From a virus, in the IMG/VR virus record IMGVR_UViG_3300044998_000953, positions 1 to 20,824 of that record: 20,824 nt of DNA. One strand, written 5' to 3'. Positions 178 to 20,824 of the stretch are shown here, one piece after another (the first letter of the stretch is position 1; each line of letters begins with the position of its first letter). A program made the position numbers and the translations under genes. Under the pieces are notes generated by a model. The model had not been told where the DNA came from. It did not search any database and worked only from the letters and a program-made list of their open reading frames with translations.

Positions 178-3100
178 ATGTTGCCCCCCGTAGCCAGATT
201 CTCTTTTCAGGCTGATTATTTCAACATTCAGTTTACTGACCGGAGCATAGCAAATCAAAGTCCCATAACTTCTTGGGTTTGGGACTTTGGGGATGGCAAT
301 AGTTCTAATCAACAGAATCCAGCTCATTATTATCATCTACCGGGAGACTACATAGTCTCCCTTACTGTTTCTAATGCCTTTGGTACAAATACTATATCCA
401 AGGGAATAAGAATAGTTGCCCCCACTCCCAAAGCTGATTTCAACACCACTAATCTGGATAACCTAAAGTTCCAGTTCAACGACCTATCTATAGGTAATGG
501 TGAAGAGATAACAGATTGGGAGTGGGATTTTGGCAACAACTCAAAATCCAAAGAGCAAAACCCCCAGTACATCTACCTTAGGGAGGGCACTTACATAGTA
601 TCCTTGACTGTTACTAACTACTGGGGCAATAGCCATAAAGTTTCTAAAGCAGTAGCTGTAAAGCCTTTACCTAAAAAAGCCCTCGTAGATTTTGATTACT
701 ATGTAGAGGCTGGTAAAGTTCAGTTTGTAAACAAAAGCCAAGACAACGGCTATAATATAACCTCTTACACCTGGTTTTTTGGGGATGGAGTTACTTCCAC
801 GGAAATATCTCCAGGTCATAGTTATTTGATACCTGGGACTTATATAGTCTCATTGATAGCTACTAATCTTGGTGGAGATTCCATATTCTCTAAGGAGATA
901 CTAGTCCCTATAACAAACCCAGAAGCTCCAAAAGCCTATTTCTCTTATACTCAGGATGGGTATTCCTTTAGCTTCAATGACCTCTCATTGGAAAACGGCT
1001 CAGAGATAATTTCTAGAGTTTGGAGCTTTGGCGAACCTGTTATATCCCTTGAAAAGAACCCTAAGCATAGTTACGATTTCGGTGGGGAGTATATAGTTAC
1101 ACTTGAGGTAAAAAACCGGTATGGTAGTTCCAAGTTTAGCCAGAAGGTAAACGCTGGACCCCGGCCGGGTTCTGAAATAGACATCATAGACCTCATTAAG
1201 TGCAAGATAAATGAAAGGGATTATGATGAAGACTGTACAAGGAGAGCCATAAAGAAATGGCAAATGTACCTTTATATATTCCCTTATAATAGAATACCCG
1301 AATCAAGAATCTTTGACCAAGATTATTGGCCCCCTATATTTAATGTCCTTATCGCAGAGTTGGTAATTTATGAACTTATAATTGCGGCTGCAAATAAGTT
1401 TATGCTGGGTGGGGGTATATCTCAAACAGTTAACCAAATTCAAAATAGCTTTGGAAGTGGCAATGGGGATGATGCAACAGTAATTCAACCCATAAATACT
1501 CCGGCAGCGCTTGAGGGTATCAAAGCTATAGAAACCGGGCCTTCTCGTGTGGAATTCTACAACCTTTCTGCTATAATAGAAGGTTTGCAGAAATACCAGA
1601 ATGAGTATGCTAAAACAGTATACTCTTATGGGGATGGCATGATGGAGTCTTATAGACGCCATATTTGCATGCTTGCCTCCAGATTGAGGGTCCCACTGGC
1701 TATTTGTGATAAACTAGCAGAGCCAACTATATTATTCAGTGGAGCATTCAACAAGAAGAGGCCCAGTATGAGCAAGCTTCTTGTGGGAGTTGCTCCTTAT
1801 GATTGGCCACAGAGAAGAAAGGAATCCAACTCTTATACCTCTGAAACCTACGAGGAATTTACTATGCCATTAGAACCTACATTCAATGCCATAGTATATC
1901 CTGAATCCGTGCAGCTAAGGGAAAGAAGGCCAGAAACCTTTACTTTCTTTGTAGCATTGAATAGAGTAAACTTGGTAGGGCCCATAGAAGGTATATACTC
2001 ATTTAAGAACACTAACATAGACGGCATAGCTGTAACTGGTGTAACTAGCATAACTGGAGACCACGTAATACTCCAACTAACCTACTCGGGGACAGCAAGA
2101 AATGGTCAATCAGGGTACATAGATATCCAATTCATACACAGAGATAGCAATATCCATAGGAACCTTAAAATTCCTATTAGTGTTGCTCCCCCAACTGTAG
2201 TAGATACAGAGATTAGGGCTGTACCATTGGGTGAGCTCCAAACCTACAGAAACTCTACAAAACGTAGGGTAGTATTAGTAAATAGGCTGGGAGATTGCAA
2301 TAGTGTAGTATATGTAACACCCGGGCCTTTGCCAAGTGGTGTAACTATAAACCCAATAACCATAGATGCTGGAGAATCCTATGCTGACCTAGACATTATA
2401 ACTGATAACTTAGTGGACTTTGGCCAATACCAAATAACACTAAACTATAGTGGATGTGGGGAATCTGCAACCTCCACATTTACCTTGATAGTTATGCCCG
2501 ACAACTATCAAACTCCCTCATTTAACGTAAGTAAGATACAGCCTATAACCATAATAAGAGGTAGAGAACACGCTGCATTGCTATCTGTATACCGATATAA
2601 TGGGTGTATATCTCATATCACAGTAGTACCTCAAAATTTACCTGATAACATAAGCATAAGCCCTATGGTAATTGCTTCAAATTCAGGCTATCTAAGGGTA
2701 TCTACTAATGACAATATACTTCCCGGTATATACAACATATTGCTGGCATTTTCAGGTTGTGGGCAATCAAAAGAGGAATATCTACAGGTTGTAGTTGTGG
2801 GAAATGAGCTAGAGTGCTCTGGTGCAGAAGATTTCACTTTAAACTCAGAGCTTTCAAACCTATCTGAGGTAAGCTTTGTGATTGGAAAATCAAAAGAGCT
2901 AACCCGTCATGTAACTATAACCAAGGGAGACAATTGCTTTGGAACTTTGGAACTCAAAGTAGATGAGACTCTTAGCCAGCTTCCCTTTGGATTCTCCGTA
3001 CCTAATTTGCCATCAAACTCCATAGGGGCATTCAAGGAGATAGAGATAGTATATGATGGCTCAACCACGGATGATGATAACAACCCAATAGAGCCGGGAG

Positions 3101-3201
3101 ACTATAGATTAGTAATCCTACTAGAAGCTTGCAATAGCTGCATAACATATCCTTATGAAATACCTATTAAGCTCAGTGAGCCACCCCCGGTGGAGGACTA
3201 A
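178..3201 (+). CDS. Multidomain neck protein: four PKD domains, adaptor-like core, C-terminal Ig-like domains
   Basis: This 1007-residue protein has three parts. Residues 5-80, 85-163, 168-246 and 252-328 are four tandem PKD domains, with signatures WDFGDG, WDFGNN, WFFGDG and WSFGEP, each followed by a GxYIVxLxVxN strand. Residues 331-515 are mainly helical, with LIAELVIYELIIAAANKF, a glycine stretch, then ETGPSRVEFYN and another helix; this layout resembles head-tail adaptor (connector) proteins. Residues 564-1000 hold about four Ig-like beta domains, three with cysteines ending strands (NRLGDC/YSGC; RYNGC/FSGC; GDNC/EAC). PKD and Ig domains often mediate surface or glycan binding. The gene precedes stopper-like and gp10-like genes, which fits a neck role. 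The ATG has no Shine-Dalgarno sequence. The PKD call is firm; the adaptor call is inference, and a tail fibre or collar whisker is the alternative. Confidence 0.75.
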   Translation: MLPPVARFSFQADYFNIQFTDRSIANQSPITSWVWDFGDGNSSNQQNPAHYYHLPGDYIVSLTVSNAFGTNTISKGIRIVAPTPKADFNTTNLDNLKFQFNDLSIGNGEEITDWEWDFGNNSKSKEQNPQYIYLREGTYIVSLTVTNYWGNSHKVSKAVAVKPLPKKALVDFDYYVEAGKVQFVNKSQDNGYNITSYTWFFGDGVTSTEISPGHSYLIPGTYIVSLIATNLGGDSIFSKEILVPITNPEAPKAYFSYTQDGYSFSFNDLSLENGSEIISRVWSFGEPVISLEKNPKHSYDFGGEYIVTLEVKNRYGSSKFSQKVNAGPRPGSEIDIIDLIKCKINERDYDEDCTRRAIKKWQMYLYIFPYNRIPESRIFDQDYWPPIFNVLIAELVIYELIIAAANKFMLGGGISQTVNQIQNSFGSGNGDDATVIQPINTPAALEGIKAIETGPSRVEFYNLSAIIEGLQKYQNEYAKTVYSYGDGMMESYRRHICMLASRLRVPLAICDKLAEPTILFSGAFNKKRPSMSKLLVGVAPYDWPQRRKESNSYTSETYEEFTMPLEPTFNAIVYPESVQLRERRPETFTFFVALNRVNLVGPIEGIYSFKNTNIDGIAVTGVTSITGDHVILQLTYSGTARNGQSGYIDIQFIHRDSNIHRNLKIPISVAPPTVVDTEIRAVPLGELQTYRNSTKRRVVLVNRLGDCNSVVYVTPGPLPSGVTINPITIDAGESYADLDIITDNLVDFGQYQITLNYSGCGESATSTFTLIVMPDNYQTPSFNVSKIQPITIIRGREHAALLSVYRYNGCISHITVVPQNLPDNISISPMVIASNSGYLRVSTNDNILPGIYNILLAFSGCGQSKEEYLQVVVVGNELECSGAEDFTLNSELSNLSEVSFVIGKSKELTRHVTITKGDNCFGTLELKVDETLSQLPFGFSVPNLPSNSIGAFKEIEIVYDGSTTDDDNNPIEPGDYRLVILLEACNSCITYPYEIPIKLSEPPPVED

Positions 3202-8013: not shown

Positions 8014-9906
8014 ATGCCTAATCCCGCATCTGTCCAATTTCGAGAGATAGACCTTACTACCACTGTAGAAAGTCTAGTAAGGGGTGTCTCCTTTGTTCTA
8101 GGGGAAACCCAAAGGGGCCCTATAAATAACCCATTCCTGGTTATCAATAGTGCTGAAAAGTTTAGACGCCATTATGGGGGAATATCAGGAGTATCCGACT
8201 TTCCCTTGCTTTGTGAGAGAGCTCTATCCTATGGAGCTATTCTTCGTGTTTCTAGAGTAGCTCATTACGATGATATCACCGATGAGAGCTCTCTAACAGC
8301 AACTAAAGCCTCATTTGCATTGGTGCAATATATTGAATTTGATGGCCCACTAGCAACAGGCGACGTATTCGATGCTATAATAGATGGCAACGCTTTGACA
8401 TCTACCCCTTTTGCAGTAAGTAATGACAATACACTTCAGCTTATTGCCAGCAAAATTGGGGACCTTACCAACGTACTTAATGCCTGGGTTCTTGATACAG
8501 ACCCCTTAAACGCCAATAGCGCTAGAAGGGTTGCTTTTGCTTCTGCCGGCCCAACTCCCCTAACCGTAACTGGCTTGAGTGTAACTGGGGGCCCATATCC
8601 AATTACAGTTACCCATGATGTATCAGGGTATGGTGTAACAGATGCTTTTGGTAGAGCCCTATTCACTGTGACCTCTAAGTACGAGGGGGCTGATTACAAC
8701 AACTTTGTATTCACAATCTTGGATTCTTCCAACAGAAGGCCTGAATACTTCAACGTGAGGATTCAACACATTAACGAACCCCAATTAACGGAGAATTTCA
8801 TCAATCTGATTATACCGGGTTTGCCTACGGCTTCTGAGTCTACGTATCTTGACGATATAAAGATATCTAGCGACTTCTTGGATATCACATACTACGACCT
8901 TTCTTCTTATAGTGGCCAACTGCGTCCTGCAAATGGCACATATAGATTGCAAGGGGGTAGTGATGGAGACCCTATAACCCTCACGGATTACATTGGAAGT
9001 GCATCCAGTAAGACAGGATTTCATTCCTTTGACGAATATGATGAAGCCCTGCAAATTGCAGTATTGGAAGCTTCAGATGAGCAAGTCCATCAGGCGGGGG
9101 AAGCCTATGCTGATAGCCGAAAAGACCTTATGTATTTTGGCCATATTGGTGGTACACTAAAGCTCTCAGCTGACCAATATGTTAGTTTGGTAACCAACAT
9201 GGGCCTTAGCTCAAGTTATACCGCTATTTTTGGAGGCGGCCTAAAAATTATCCACCCCGAAACCCTAGAAGACTACAATATCTCTGAATTAGGGGATATC
9301 ATTGGCATTGCGGCACGTAATGATACAGAGCAAGCCCCTTGGTGGTCATTCTCAGGTCCCAATAGGGGTATCCTAAAAAATACTAAAGGGGTGATTAACA
9401 ACTTTGGTAGCTCTGGGCAATTTAACGACCTAACCCTTCTAACCAATGTGGGTTTGAATATGGTAGTGACAAGGAAGGATAGCCGGGGAGTAAGTCAAAG
9501 AGTTTTGTGGGGTAACTTCACATCTCAGCCTAACAGCTCAAAACTCAGCTTTGTAAACGTCCGTAGGTTAGTAATCTTCATACGTAAATCTCTTAGCCCA
9601 ACACTGGAGAAATACCTAGAAGAGCCCAACGACCCGATAACTTGGAATCGGATGTACTACGAAGTACAACCCTTCTTTGAATTCCTCCAAAGCCCCCAAG
9701 CTAGAGCTCTATTTGAGTGGCGATGGGAAGGTGACCAATTCGTATCTGACCTAAGCCAATTGAAGGTTAATAATGCTATTGACGTTGGTAAAGGAAGGTA
9801 CCGAGTAAAGCTATTTATAACTCCGATAGTATCTATGCAAGAGATTCAAATGGACCTCATCATAGACTACGGTGCTGGAGTTATAAGCCTTAATGAACCC
9901 TCATAA
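8014..9906 (+). CDS. Contractile tail sheath protein
   Basis: The 630-residue protein has the sheath pattern: an N-terminal segment with VRGVSFVLGETQRGPINNPF and a following EKFRRHYGG, a variable central beta-rich insertion (about residues 100-330), a central domain, and a C-terminal domain with VNVRRLVIFIRKSL, a helix around TWNRMYYEVQPFFEFLQ and the strand pair VGKGRYRVKLFITPI / EIQMDLIID. In T4 gp18-type sheaths the terminal extensions weave subunits together. Length is close to gp18 (about 660). It is immediately followed by the tube gene. It is preceded by a 37-nt AT-rich spacer with no clear promoter. A very high expression level would be expected. Confidence 0.93.
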   Translation: MPNPASVQFREIDLTTTVESLVRGVSFVLGETQRGPINNPFLVINSAEKFRRHYGGISGVSDFPLLCERALSYGAILRVSRVAHYDDITDESSLTATKASFALVQYIEFDGPLATGDVFDAIIDGNALTSTPFAVSNDNTLQLIASKIGDLTNVLNAWVLDTDPLNANSARRVAFASAGPTPLTVTGLSVTGGPYPITVTHDVSGYGVTDAFGRALFTVTSKYEGADYNNFVFTILDSSNRRPEYFNVRIQHINEPQLTENFINLIIPGLPTASESTYLDDIKISSDFLDITYYDLSSYSGQLRPANGTYRLQGGSDGDPITLTDYIGSASSKTGFHSFDEYDEALQIAVLEASDEQVHQAGEAYADSRKDLMYFGHIGGTLKLSADQYVSLVTNMGLSSSYTAIFGGGLKIIHPETLEDYNISELGDIIGIAARNDTEQAPWWSFSGPNRGILKNTKGVINNFGSSGQFNDLTLLTNVGLNMVVTRKDSRGVSQRVLWGNFTSQPNSSKLSFVNVRRLVIFIRKSLSPTLEKYLEEPNDPITWNRMYYEVQPFFEFLQSPQARALFEWRWEGDQFVSDLSQLKVNNAIDVGKGRYRVKLFITPIVSMQEIQMDLIIDYGAGVISLNEPS

Positions 9907-9926: not shown

Positions 9927-10499
9927 ATGGCATACGTTAATAACCCTGCCAAGGTTTTCAACTTTAGGATAGATTTTCCTGGTAGACCTTGGAACCAATG
10001 GCTAGCTCAAAAGGTAACCATACCTGAGCATGAAATAGAAGTAGTAGAACATGGTGATGCAAATCACGTAATTAAGACGGGAGGCCTTATCAAGTTCGGA
10101 ATGATTACCGTGGAGAAGATATCAGAGGCTACTCAGCCTGATTCTTTTGCATGGGGTTGGATTCGTCAGGTTCAATCTGTAATAAGAAGGGGAGGAGATT
10201 TGCCTATCCAGTACAAAGCCACCTGTCTTATCACTCAGTTGAGTGTAGATGGCATAACTCCTTTGAACGTCTGGGAATGCACTGGAGTATGGCCTAGTAA
10301 GATTAACGGTATTGACTTGTCTAGAACCGAGTCCGAAAATACTATGCAAACTATTGAGTTTTGTGTAGATGGCATAGAGGTGAGAAACGGTGCTGGGGCA
10401 GTTATTGCTTCTTCTGCTGCCTCCTCCGCTGCATCTGCTGCCGGGGTGGGGAATAGTTTTATTGGTGGAGCAGCTGCTGGTGCAGGCTCTGTTATTTAA
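9927..10499 (+). CDS. Tail tube protein with low-complexity C-terminal tail
   Basis: Residues 1-153 form a gp19-like tube fold: FNFRIDFPG at the first strand, VTIPEHEIEVVEHGDANHVIKTGG for the long loop with the tube hairpin, KFGMITVEKIS, then WGWIRQVQ and CLITQL / WECTGVWPSKINGIDL. The position directly after the sheath is canonical. Residues 154-190 are an unusual Gly/Ala/Ser-only-rich tail (GAGAVIASSAASSAASAAGV and GGAAAGAGS). Most tube proteins end near the last strand, so this tail is an addition, and could project outside or into the tube lumen. The gene starts 20 nt after the sheath stop behind an A-rich leader and ends just before a strong terminator. Confidence 0.9.
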   Translation: MAYVNNPAKVFNFRIDFPGRPWNQWLAQKVTIPEHEIEVVEHGDANHVIKTGGLIKFGMITVEKISEATQPDSFAWGWIRQVQSVIRRGGDLPIQYKATCLITQLSVDGITPLNVWECTGVWPSKINGIDLSRTESENTMQTIEFCVDGIEVRNGAGAVIASSAASSAASAAGVGNSFIGGAAAGAGSVI

Positions 10500-10579: not shown

Positions 10580-11377
10580 ATGGAAGAAGCACAAAAACCC
10601 TTTAGCATCCCAACCCTAAAAGTTCATTTGCCAAGTGGCCATTGGGTTGAGATAAGAGAACAGAATGGTGAAGATGATGACATTCTTAGTAAGAGCTCCT
10701 ATGTTCAAAGCCATGAGAACGTAAACAGATTTCTGGCTGGAATCATAGTAAACAGTTCTTACAACAGGCCTATTACTGAGAAAGATATCAAACAGTGGAG
10801 AGTAAACGATAAGTATTATCTTCTCCTCAAAAGTCGGATTTTTTCACTAGGACACGAGCTAATCTTCGATTATTCATGCCCCAAATGCAAGACTAAGACC
10901 CAGATGGTGGAAGACCTAAGTATTTTTGATGCTGACCTAGATAGGGACTCAGAAAACTTTATAGGTAAACTGCTAGAGAAAAACCCTAATAGCGAGGAAC
11001 TAAGAAATAAGATTTGGCCTCTAGAGCATAATGAGCCAGTAAGACATCTTGTACTTAATTCAGGAAAAGAGGTTAGGTATAAGTTCCTTACGGTTGCTTC
11101 TGAGCATAATGCAATAAAAATTCCCTTTGGGGAGCAGTCCAGAAATAAGGAGCTCATTATAAGGGACTTTGAAATGAAGGTTGATGGTATGTGGATGTCA
11201 GTTCAGAATTTCAAATTACTATCAGCCAAAGATATGGCGCAAATTCGAGCAGATGTAAATAAGCATGATGAGCTGTTTATTATGGAATCCCATATTAAAT
11301 GCCCTGCTTGCAACCATGAAGAGGTTATGCCACTTATCGCTATACCGGATTTTTTCTTCCCAACGAGCGTGAGCTAA
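10580..11377 (+). CDS. Tail assembly chaperone / T4 gp26-like protein with split zinc ribbon
   Basis: The 265-residue protein starts with TLKVHLPSGHWVEIREQNGE, the beta hairpin typical of the T4-baseplate (gp26-like) family. It then has helices and two CxxC pairs, C100-P-K-C103 and C241-P-A-C244, which probably bind one zinc. Proteins in this slot, directly upstream of the tape measure, act as chaperones that coat the tape measure during tail assembly. Near its 3' end is a T TTT TTC slippery heptamer, and the next ORF lies in the -1 frame, so a longer frameshifted product of 315 residues is predicted. It starts just after a terminator with no visible promoter. Chaperone role is inferred from position and frameshift layout. 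Confidence 0.75.
   Translation: MEEAQKPFSIPTLKVHLPSGHWVEIREQNGEDDDILSKSSYVQSHENVNRFLAGIIVNSSYNRPITEKDIKQWRVNDKYYLLLKSRIFSLGHELIFDYSCPKCKTKTQMVEDLSIFDADLDRDSENFIGKLLEKNPNSEELRNKIWPLEHNEPVRHLVLNSGKEVRYKFLTVASEHNAIKIPFGEQSRNKELIIRDFEMKVDGMWMSVQNFKLLSAKDMAQIRADVNKHDELFIMESHIKCPACNHEEVMPLIAIPDFFFPTSVS
11350..11356 (+). promoter_or_regulatory. Predicted programmed -1 ribosomal frameshift site
   Basis: The heptamer T TTT TTC is in the correct zero frame (GAT TTT TTC), matching X XXY YYZ. Slippage by -1 continues as CTT CCC AAC GAG and runs without a stop into the next ORF, ending at 11524-11526. The zero-frame stop is 11375-11377, so the two frames overlap by less than 30 nt. I do not see a clear downstream hairpin or pseudoknot, so efficiency may be modest. 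Confidence 0.75.
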
Positions 11378-11526
11378 TGGAGCAATTTCTCTACCTTCAA
11401 TGGTCAGAGATTTACATAGGATATCGAGAGTTTCTTAGTTTACCTACAAGAACCAGGCATAAGATGCTAGAACTGGTTATAAAAAGGAACGACGAACTCA
11501 AAAGAAAATTCAAATCTAAGAAGTAG
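11377..11526 (+). CDS. Small tail assembly chaperone extension (-1 frame; gpT/gp51-like position)
   Basis: The 49-residue ORF starts at an ATG overlapping the upstream stop (TAATG) and lies in the -1 frame of the upstream gene. It is basic and helical, with YLQWSEIYIGYREF, LPTRTRHKMLELVIKRNDE and a lysine-rich end. The LP-x-R-x-R followed by a helix recalls the C-terminal parts of frameshifted tail chaperones. It lies 1 nt before the tape measure gene. It can be made either by frameshift from the slippery site 24 nt earlier, giving a fused 315-residue protein, or by restart at the overlapping ATG. Which of these occurs cannot be read from sequence alone. Confidence 0.7.
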   Translation: MEQFLYLQWSEIYIGYREFLSLPTRTRHKMLELVIKRNDELKRKFKSKK

Positions 11527-17889: not shown

Positions 17890-19614
17890 ATGAAAGTTCT
17901 AAATCCATGGGTTAGCTATGTTGACCGAAGCTATGAGCAGATAAAGAGGTCTTTGGTATCAAGGCTAGTTTCAAACAACCCTGAAATCACCGACCATACA
18001 GAAAACAACATTCTTATTATAATAATTTCAATGTTTGCCGGCATAGGTGAGCAATTGAATTATTACATAGACAACATGGCAAGAGAGGCTTTCCTAGAAA
18101 CTGCTAGGAAATATACCTCAGTTGTAAGGCTAACTAGAATGCTTGACTATAGAATCAAGGCAAAAAGCCCTGCTTATGTAGACATTACTCTAACCTTACT
18201 TAACGGGGTAGACCCAATAGCTGCTCAATCCAACATATTTGTACCGGCCGGAATAGTTGTAACAAATGGCCAATACAATTTTGTTGTAACATCTGACCAT
18301 TTCATTAGAGCTGGAAGCCAAACTACTCAACTTTTTGCAAGGCAAATAGATACTTTTGTTGACATTGTTGTAGGAACTTCCACTGGGGCTCCCAATCAGC
18401 AATACACTTTAGGAGAGAACTATGCTCAAGGTACAGCCCGAATAACCATAAATAACCAAACCTGGGAGCTAGTAAGTACATTAGGTTTTTCAAGGCCTAC
18501 TTCAAGACACTTTATAATAGATATAGAGGTAGATGGTCAAGCCTATATAAAATTTGGGGATGGCCTATTTGGAGCAATACCGGAAGCAAATTACGATATA
18601 TATTGTACTTTTGATGTTACAGTAGGTTCTGAAGCAAACAACGTATTACCTAATGCTATAACCCAGGTAAGCTTTGTTCCCCCCGCCTTTGGTAGTATTA
18701 TAGCAGGGTTAGGCTATGCAGATGGGTTTAGGGTTACAAACTTATTATCGCCAGCAGGGGGTACAGACTATGAGGGAATTGAGCAAATAAGACAAAGAGC
18801 CCCATTAAGTTTGAGGACTCTTGATAGGGCTGTTACACCCCAAGACTATCAAGATATAGCTCTTACTATAAATTCGGTATTCAGAGCAAAAGTAGGCTTC
18901 TGTTGTGGGAAATCAATAGATATCTATATTGCCCCATTTGGAGAGTCCATAGCTTCCTCATCACTGCTAAACCAGATTCAGGATTACTTTGATTGTAGGA
19001 AAATGGTTACTACATTTGTAAAACCCCAACCTGCGGGCATAACATACTTTGACCTTACTATGCAAGTAACCCCTAAGTTTTTTGCTAATCCCGCTATAGT
19101 AAACCAGAAGATAATAGATGCTCTAAATACCATCTATTCATACCCGAACTCAGACATAAACAAACCCATATTTTTCTCCTATATTTATCGAGCTTTAGCC
19201 CCTATAAACGAGATTGATACAGTGGCTATTACAATGCTTAGGACTAGGCCCTATGCAAGGCCCTTTAACCATACAGCAAGGCTATTTGGTACAATCTTAA
19301 CTCTGCCTGGTTCTGGAGCTAAAACAAAATGGAAGGTAGTATATCAAAACTCGGTATTTACCTTATTCAGGGAGCAGCAATTTATAACTAACCTAAGTAT
19401 AAATCAGCCATTTATAACTAACCTAAACGAGGTTCAAATAACTATAACCCCAGGCATATACTCTGAGGGTATGCAATGGGATTTTGTGGTATATCCTTAC
19501 ACCCAAGATATTAGTCTGGATGACTTTACAGTACCAGTTATAAACCCTTCAACTCTTACTATACTTCTGAATCCCGCCTCGGATTTGAATACCTGTAATA
19601 CTACCTGCGCATGA
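17890..19614 (+). CDS. Baseplate wedge protein J / gp6-like
   Basis: The 574-residue protein shows the baseplate J layout. The N-terminus has helices DHTENNILIIIISMFAGIGEQL and EAFLETARKYTSVVRLTRML. A beta domain follows, with FVPAGIVVTNGQYNFVV and the hallmark FGDGLFGAIP (residues 222-231) and GSEANNVLPN. Next comes GGTDYEGIEQIRQRAP, then TLDRAVTPQDYQDIAL at about 309-324. Residues 455-574 form a beta-rich extension beyond the usual J length. It carries the short duplication FITNLSINQPFITNL. gp6/J dimers form the ring that holds the wedges together. The last four bases of the gene overlap the next start (ATGA). Confidence 0.9.
   Translation: MKVLNPWVSYVDRSYEQIKRSLVSRLVSNNPEITDHTENNILIIIISMFAGIGEQLNYYIDNMAREAFLETARKYTSVVRLTRMLDYRIKAKSPAYVDITLTLLNGVDPIAAQSNIFVPAGIVVTNGQYNFVVTSDHFIRAGSQTTQLFARQIDTFVDIVVGTSTGAPNQQYTLGENYAQGTARITINNQTWELVSTLGFSRPTSRHFIIDIEVDGQAYIKFGDGLFGAIPEANYDIYCTFDVTVGSEANNVLPNAITQVSFVPPAFGSIIAGLGYADGFRVTNLLSPAGGTDYEGIEQIRQRAPLSLRTLDRAVTPQDYQDIALTINSVFRAKVGFCCGKSIDIYIAPFGESIASSSLLNQIQDYFDCRKMVTTFVKPQPAGITYFDLTMQVTPKFFANPAIVNQKIIDALNTIYSYPNSDINKPIFFSYIYRALAPINEIDTVAITMLRTRPYARPFNHTARLFGTILTLPGSGAKTKWKVVYQNSVFTLFREQQFITNLSINQPFITNLNEVQITITPGIYSEGMQWDFVVYPYTQDISLDDFTVPVINPSTLTILLNPASDLNTCNTTCA
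19380..19426 (+). repeat. 17-bp tandem duplication within the J gene
   Basis: ATTTATAACTAACCTAA occurs at 19380-19396 and again at 19410-19426, a 30-nt (ten-codon) period. It encodes FITNL twice. The two copies are identical, while the bases between them differ, so it looks like a recent in-frame duplication inside the C-terminal extension. Confidence 0.85.
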
Positions 19615-20824
19615 TATTCAGAGATTACTTATTCAGCCTACTAAGTAGCCATTTCAAAATAAATGACACTTATAAGGATGAGAATGATGAGGGCCTATTA
19701 GAAAGGTACCTTAGAAACTTTGGGCAGGAACTGGATGATGAATTTATACCCATCATTGAGAATGTAACTGAGCAGCTTTCCCTTAATGAGGCTGAGGCCA
19801 AATTTCTAGTTCATTTTGCTTACACTCTAGGTAGACCTCCATATATAAATAATGACCCAGAGCTTTACAGAAAGCTCCTAGAGAACATTGTATCTATCTA
19901 CAAGATAAAAGGCACAAAGAAAGCCTATGAGCTTCTTTTTGGGTTGTTAGGCTTCAATGTGAGCTTAGTAGAGTTTGAGCCAAAAGAGTATATCTACGAT
20001 GAAAATCCCCCAGTTCTATATGACAAGATAGATTTTGTAAATAGGGCTACTCCACCATTTTACGATAGTGATTGCCCATCCTGTAGCGATTACAGTATAT
20101 TCTATGTACCTGATTATATTGATTGTCGGGCTTTTAGAAATACCAGTTTCTTTCTTAATTGCATAGATACATTACCTGGGGGCTATGCAGGATTCATATT
20201 CAATATAACTACAGCAGAGCCAGGCTCTGTTTTTGTATTTAATGATGGTACAGGTAATCGGGTAGAAGTAGAATATACTCAACCTACTCTATCGGATTTC
20301 AAAGATGCTGTAGTATTAGCCTTATCAACAAACCCTGCTCAATTTTGGGCAGAACTTGATGTTGATGGGTATATCAGAATCTATATAAACCTACTATACT
20401 GGCAAGCACAGAACCCTGAGTTTGACCTATGCACCTCAAGAGTATTTATAGTAGATGATATTGCTAATGCTAGTATAAGCCTGCCTGGGGGTAACCTTAG
20501 GCTTATAAAGAATATCAAATGCCTTAATTGCAGTAACCTACAAGATATCTCTTATACCTTTGCTAAAGTATCATTTACCCACTCTAAGAGTTCAAATGGG
20601 GCTCAAATTACAGTAACATTTACCGAGGCATTTTCAACTAATGGGTCGGGAGTTATAGTAAGTAGGCTATGGAGCTTCGGAGATGGAACCACCTCCACTG
20701 AAGAAAACCCCACTCATGTATATACTGAGGGTAATAAATCATACCTAGTTAGCCTATTAGTTAATACCTCAGATGGCCTAACTTCAAGGTATACTACTAG
20801 GGTTGTTTTAATAGGGAATACCCC
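19611..20824 (+). CDS. gpI-like tail protein with C-terminal PKD domain (partial, runs off the window)
   Basis: The ATG at 19611 overlaps the J stop (ATGA), and the frame stays open to the window edge, giving 404 residues. Residues 50-120 resemble the P2 gpI-type tail protein: LSLNEAEAKFLVHFAYTLG, DPELYRKLLENIVSIYKIKG and TKKAYELLFGLLGF. A cysteine-containing region (DCPSC, DCRAF, LNC) follows at 150-185 and near 303. From about residue 317 a PKD domain begins, with WSFGDGTTSTEENPTHVY at 354-371. gpI joins J in the wedge and carries the tail fibres. The PKD addition suggests a surface-binding arm, as in the neck protein. The C-terminus is not visible. Confidence 0.85.
   Translation, partial: MIFRDYLFSLLSSHFKINDTYKDENDEGLLERYLRNFGQELDDEFIPIIENVTEQLSLNEAEAKFLVHFAYTLGRPPYINNDPELYRKLLENIVSIYKIKGTKKAYELLFGLLGFNVSLVEFEPKEYIYDENPPVLYDKIDFVNRATPPFYDSDCPSCSDYSIFYVPDYIDCRAFRNTSFFLNCIDTLPGGYAGFIFNITTAEPGSVFVFNDGTGNRVEVEYTQPTLSDFKDAVVLALSTNPAQFWAELDVDGYIRIYINLLYWQAQNPEFDLCTSRVFIVDDIANASISLPGGNLRLIKNIKCLNCSNLQDISYTFAKVSFTHSKSSNGAQITVTFTEAFSTNGSGVIVSRLWSFGDGTTSTEENPTHVYTEGNKSYLVSLLVNTSDGLTSRYTTRVVLIGNT

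Follow-up and report, generated by a model that had tools for sequence, protein, structure and literature searches.

Organisation of the locus

The stretch of viral DNA analysed here (the window; 20,824 nucleotides, positions 1 to 20,824 of the 20.8-kb IMG/VR virus record IMGVR_UViG_3300044998_000953) contains a contractile-tail module with genes for a sheath, a gp19-like tube, a PF12322 protein, a tape measure, a LysM protein, a spike OB domain, gp25 and baseplate J (Table 1). Judging from the sheath gene, the tail is contractile, in agreement with the first-pass annotation, which had assigned the locus to a contractile phage. The PF12322 gene encodes a tail assembly chaperone, TAC-N; it sits between the tail tube and tape measure genes and is the only gene of its family in the record. 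On either side of the tail module an adhesin-like PKD-domain protein is encoded, at 178-3201 with four repeats and at 19611-20824 with a single repeat behind a Tail_P2_I-like domain. A clear Shine-Dalgarno signal is absent at every gene start examined in the window, which, together with the 1-base TAATG overlaps of the baseplate genes, would fit a Bacteroidota-like host.

Table 1. Features of the chaperone locus and its surroundings in the window
Feature	Position	Strand	Details
Tail sheath	8014..9906	+	PHROG 23, E 2.3e-33
Tail tube, gp19-like	9927..10499	+	PF06841, E 5.5e-13
TAC-N, gp26/gp51-type (PF12322) tail assembly chaperone, 265 aa	10580..11377	+	TAA stop 11375-11377
Two CxxC knuckles	10877..11311	+	CPKC (residues 100-103) and CPAC (residues 241-244)
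Slippery heptamer T TTT TTC	11350..11356	+	zero frame GAT TTT TTC, X XXY YYZ phase
TAC-C, -1 frame extension, 56 codons plus stop	11356..11526	+	conserved with relatives
Predicted stem	11366..11444	+	9 nt after the heptamer, contains ATG 11377; weak in the window
Possible coupled restart ATG in TAATG	11377..11379	+	alternative route; product would be 49 aa, beginning MEQFLYLQW
Tape measure protein, 732 aa	11528..13726	+	PhageMin_Tail E 6e-26, PHROG 28
Zero-frame C-terminus of TAC-N			CPACNHEEVMPLIAIPDFFFPTSVS
Predicted tryptic junction peptide of TAC-NC			CPACNHEEVMPLIAIPDFFLPNER

A slippery heptamer at the end of the chaperone gene

Eight codons upstream of its stop, the chaperone gene carries a T TTT TTC heptamer in the phase required for -1 slippage. 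The -1 frame is open from 11320 to 11526, and a single base (11527) separates its end from the ATG of the tape measure gene. Reading the zero frame up to the heptamer and the -1 extension thereafter would give a protein of 315 aa (37.3 kDa), TAC-NC. Heptamer, phase and frames are thus as the first-pass annotation had described them, including the small -1 ORF that stays open up to 1 nt before the tape measure gene. The zero-frame stop and an ATG in the -1 frame overlap in the sequence TAATG (11375-11379).

Among 24 in-phase candidate heptamers in the window, only this one has a -1 frame that runs past the stop of its own gene (58 codons, against 2-23 codons for the others, all of which end within their genes). 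Since the protein motif at this point is DFFFP, however, a T6 heptamer turns up in phase in 62% of synonymous resamplings of the last 30 codons. The -1 relation of the two ORFs is forced by the TAATG overlap itself, and the same 1-base overlap with the next gene in -1 occurs at three other gene junctions (14582, 16513 and 17478). Taken on its own, the window makes a weak case for frameshifting at the sequence level, and it is the homologues that decide.

Conservation of the heptamer and the -1 frame in relatives

Homologous loci were collected by tblastn on phage records and by alignment-guided scans of viral and genome contigs. No near relatives were found in viral contigs with the window's TAC-N, tape measure or sheath protein as query, so that alignments were needed; the alignment of the C-domain was too variable to serve as a scan query. 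Since the scans used amino-acid patterns, codons were not selected by the search. The clade of the window comprises 88 loci, 69 after dereplication (window included), at about 30-42% protein identity.

Of the 69 dereplicated loci, 61 have a T6 heptamer at this FF motif, again in phase and usually 7 codons before the stop. The run ends in a conserved C (TTTTTTC) in 57 of these 61 loci, and TTTTTTT occurs in three dereplicated relatives. Every one of the 68 motif-bearing loci has a T immediately before the first Phe codon, although the residue encoded there varies among seven (D, S, G, T, N, A and H). Of 61 FF loci, 60 read T|TTT, compared with 24.6 expected from codon usage (binomial p 7e-23; p values here ignore shared ancestry, which inflates them, and synonymous sites between loci are near saturation, with a pooled pS of 0.82). 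Beyond the zero-frame stop, the -1 frame is open for at least 40 codons in 67/69 loci, while the corresponding median for +1 is 10 codons (first 25 loci). The heptamer is immediately preceded by a stop in the -1 frame in 7 of the first 25 loci, which closes that frame to entry from farther upstream. These counts for heptamer, codon choice and open -1 frame support the proposal of the first-pass annotation that the chaperone gene undergoes programmed -1 frameshifting. Site, frame relation, conservation and codon constraint are all read directly from the nucleotide sequences.

Start codons are rare near the junction: an ATG, GTG or TTG lies no more than 15 codons from the heptamer in only 5 of the 61 T6 loci, the window among them, and in none of the other 56. 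The nearest relatives (L048 and L049, 40-42% identity) keep the heptamer and the FFLPN junction and lack the ATG of the window. The alignment of homologues that the first-pass annotation had suggested as a check therefore shows heptamer and frame relation persisting at about 30-42% identity, mostly in loci with no -1 start codon nearby. In the one close set that could be compared (L003/L012/L015 versus L004), TAC-C has a dN/dS of 0.25-0.26. The first three of these loci, from a phage scaffold of human faecal origin, a contig in IMG/VR and a Dysosmobacter-binned contig, are nearly identical; this sharing may reflect a prophage or a misbinned phage.

Homologues that keep both ORFs and lose the heptamer, which the first-pass annotation had counted against its own reading, amount to seven relatives, a minority. 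Six have T TTY TAY (L035, L067, L069, L080, L097 and L100) and one has T TTC TTC (L115); all keep the -1 domain together with T TTY, with no start codon before the domain, and a slip of one tRNA on T TTY would be enough in principle. Two further loci have a -1 extension of 20 codons only (L112) or none (L124). The strict heptamer is, as these loci illustrate, not universal.

RNA structure downstream of the heptamer

Segments downstream of the heptamer are predicted to fold more stably, relative to dinucleotide shuffles, than control segments from the same contigs (mean z -1.97 versus -0.62; 25 loci, p 5e-4). In a larger set the mean z is -1.35, versus -0.31 for controls, and the site lies below its controls in 50 of 68 loci (p 4e-6). 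A hairpin beginning 7 nt past the heptamer shows two-sided changes in 10 of its 14 pairs across 14 loci (4.0 in shuffles, with 0/500 reaching the observed value), a figure to be read with the caveat that the hairpin was derived from some of the tested sequences and that the region is protein-coding. Placed at 7 nt, the hairpin scores above all slid versions. The stem predicted in the window differs from that of the relatives in being longer-range, and it is not significant (z -2.0 and -1.6, and -0.9 on 60 nt). Several architectures occur among the relatives, so that one consensus hairpin for the whole set was rejected, and a sub-threshold mir-12 match, the only one from Rfam, was taken as chance.

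Family and predicted fold of the products

TAC-N matches PF12322 with 33.1 bits (curated cut-off 24.5; E 5.8e-8), as well as PHROG 150 (baseplate hub). The second stretch of the PF12322 match reaches profile position 218/219 at window position 11356 and so ends exactly at the heptamer. The AlphaFold2 model of the 265-aa protein has a pLDDT of 87. Of 53 BFVD matches with E ≤ 0.001, the best are to baseplate-hub, gp26-like and gp51-like proteins, including a T4 gp51-like protein (CP21) and gp26 of Aeromonas phage 25. Foldseek found nothing in the PDB at E below 0.1. When solved structures were compared a second time, with VIA, two stood out, both on residues 1-94: 3klu (Z 6.6) and 2ob9 (Z 6.1), with the next rows at 3.6 or lower. 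Although a Z below 8 may reflect no more than a shared arrangement, the model is suggestive of an N-terminal chaperone-like fold; 3klu is YqbN, which we take to be a tail assembly chaperone.

The first-pass annotation had described the long form as a gp26-like, zinc-binding protein. The gp26 type is borne out by the PF12322 match. As for zinc, the CPKC and CPAC pairs are present and could possibly form one split zinc ribbon in the model; zinc-binding chains (S27e, Tim15) align weakly, with Z of 2-3 over 41-47 residues spread across approximately 91-255, and the cysteines are lost in many relatives. The further claim that the protein is not of the lambda gpG type went too far, given that residues 1-94 align, with modest Z, to the HK97 chaperone (2ob9) as well as to 3klu.

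TAC-C is modelled as three helices (pLDDT 89), with helix 1 spanning residues 5-17. The ATG at 11377 corresponds to residue 9 of this model, inside helix 1. Searched alone, the C-domain gave no convincing Pfam or PHROG family match.

Proposed mechanism and alternatives

In our judgement the best explanation, and very probably the correct one, is a programmed -1 frameshift that yields TAC-N and TAC-NC for a lambda-like role in assembly. A minority of ribosomes would shift back by one base at T TTT TTC, bypass the TAA at 11375 and continue to 11526, and a single mRNA would then give a major 265-aa TAC-N and a minor 315-aa TAC-NC with the three-helix C-terminal domain. Both forms would coat the tape measure protein, and TAC-NC would recruit tail tube subunits, by analogy with lambda gpG/gpGT. 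We infer the slippage itself; its presumed rate and role in assembly are taken from lambda (PMC5009743).

A second reading overlaps with this one and is, we think, rather unlikely: TAC-NC would be made by frameshifting and a free TAC-C in addition by restart at TAATG. Heptamer and restart ATG do coexist in the window and in the 595-kb phage L010 (LR756511). The ATG is not conserved in near relatives, however, and clear Shine-Dalgarno signals, which might have been weighed here, are absent from all gene starts.

We give distinctly less credence to translational coupling, by which restart at ATG 11377 after the TAA would produce a separate 49-aa protein and the heptamer would be a by-product of the FF motif. 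TAATG is present, the same type of junction recurs three times in the window, the ATG lies near the beginning of the conserved domain, L010 likewise has a -1 ATG overlapping the zero-frame stop, and T4 makes gp26 and gp51 from separate genes. Yet most relatives have no start codon there, the nearest ones lack the ATG of the window, a start at 11377 would fall inside helix 1 of the C-domain model, and the protein motif does not account for the T|TTT codon constraint. In the window itself, restart at ATG 11377 could still act as an extra route or, as the first-pass annotation had allowed, as an alternative one.

Transcriptional slippage on the T6 run, through which a portion of the transcripts would carry the C-domain in frame, is very improbable: the run is present, and extends to seven T in three relatives, but it is short and ends in a conserved C, the -1 ORF is retained in the T TTC TAC and T TTC TTC relatives, which have no T6 run, and a covarying stem at 7 nt fits the ribosome. 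The least probable reading of all, a slippery-looking heptamer that arose by chance in a Phe-rich C-terminus beside an unrelated small gene, would draw on the high resampling frequency of the heptamer given the protein motif and is already contradicted by the conservation statistics across relatives.

The preferred reading, -1 frameshifting, very probably accounts for the gp26-type long form at a large number of loci that can be aligned, and with that set the idea that the T4 gp26/gp51 pair replaced an ancestral frameshift becomes testable. The small ORF should be annotated as joined to the chaperone, instead of as a hypothetical gene or not at all. The constraint at synonymous positions and the covarying stem offer concrete changes for a reporter assay.

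Relatives with other arrangements

A scan with further T4-like relatives yielded 79 contigs after dereplication. Nine of them (L127-L135) have T TTT TTC and an open -1 frame, and in two of these nine the +1 frame is longer still. Of the remaining 70, which represent a large marine T4-like clade, nearly all have the C-terminal ORF in +1; their FF/FL motif is encoded by a near-invariant YTT TGG, in most cases with CCT after it. Several +1 loci have an interrupted T run (TTC TTT TGG, CTT TGG), which argues against transcriptional slippage there. The domain is also in +1, with looser motifs, in SP-15, LIS04, GXN1, immuto, Mel-JY01, BRock and LR756508. Programmed +1 frameshifting is, from these sequences, probable in the marine T4-like clade, and a short literature search found no description of the YTT TGG class. 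The loci with the domain in +1 are L136-L206, L006-L009, L041, L042 and L044.

Jumbo phages and relatives with an in-phase T6 at the FF motif and a -1 extension include XacN1 (L043), Atu_ph07 (L046), RAS14 (L047), L010 and L127-L135; where annotated in these, the extension is a separate hypothetical gene. In L005 (KX501134), a hypothetical reverse-strand protein is annotated at 200-430 over the chaperone gene, which is itself unannotated.

On balance we lean towards the view that the FF motif at the end of the PF12322 chaperone is a fixed point at which different phages use different solutions: -1 recoding on T TTT TTC in the clade of the window and several jumbo phages, +1 recoding on YTT TGG in the marine clade (with looser motifs in phages like SP-15) and a gene for each form in T4. 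Loci that have both the heptamer and TAATG, such as the window, would then be possible intermediates towards separate genes.

Comparison with known systems

The 2022 article by Vladimirov, Gautam and Davidson (Virology 566:9), which identified chaperone genes of T4-like phages, reportedly names 26 and 51 as the T4 genes in its abstract and ascribes frameshifting to several further T4-like groups. The short and the long chaperone are encoded separately in some T4-like phages, according to the passage in PMC10885494 that cites Vladimirov, Gautam and Davidson 2022, and polyT -1 signals in T4-like TAC-N genes are attributed to the same study in the corresponding passage of PMC12846349. The link drawn by the first-pass annotation between the gp26/gp51 arrangement and frameshifting is, going by these passages, not new (Vladimirov et al. 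2022, via PMC12846349 and PMC10885494). Given that earlier proposal, the device is a known one, now seen in another clade, and our finding extends T4-like chaperone frameshifting accordingly.

A 2016 review described the tail frameshift as conserved among long-tailed phages except T4 (PMC5009743). T4 gp26 and gp51 both match PF12322 across the whole profile, gp51 over residues 1-201 of 249. Gp51 has about 48 extra C-terminal residues that are absent from gp26, which ends just after its FF. Judged by sequence, the T4 pair is the same two-form layout made by separate genes, and the window resembles it in the PF12322 family, in the FF near the gp26 end that matches the FF of the shift site and in the C-terminal extension of approximately 50 residues as in gp51. 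Unlike T4, where gene 26 is on the minus strand and gene 51 lies upstream of genes 27-28-29, the window has one PF12322 gene and a -1 ORF. When our family profile was compared with T4 gp26, only the last 29 columns aligned (E 0.0055), and the comparison with gp51 gave nothing useful.

Xu, Hendrix and Duda are said to have described, in 2004, the conserved tail chaperone frameshift of dsDNA phages (lambda gpG/gpGT). Lambda gpG/gpGT was not recovered by any sequence search in this analysis. Unlike lambda gpG, the protein of the window combines an N-terminal chaperone-like fold, as modelled, with a C-terminal part of PF12322 type that carries CxxC pairs. The HK97 chaperone (2ob9) and YqbN (3klu) share only approximately 10% sequence identity with it, and their chains, of 104 and 119 residues, are much shorter than 265 aa.

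The TAC locus of Pakpunavirus/Vandenendeviridae has an invariant GTTTTT -1 site (PMC12846349). These are different phage families; what they share with the proposed reading of the window is a -1 shift on a T run near the 3' end of TAC-N, found by conservation, and an extension that had earlier been annotated as a separate ORF (PMC12846349).
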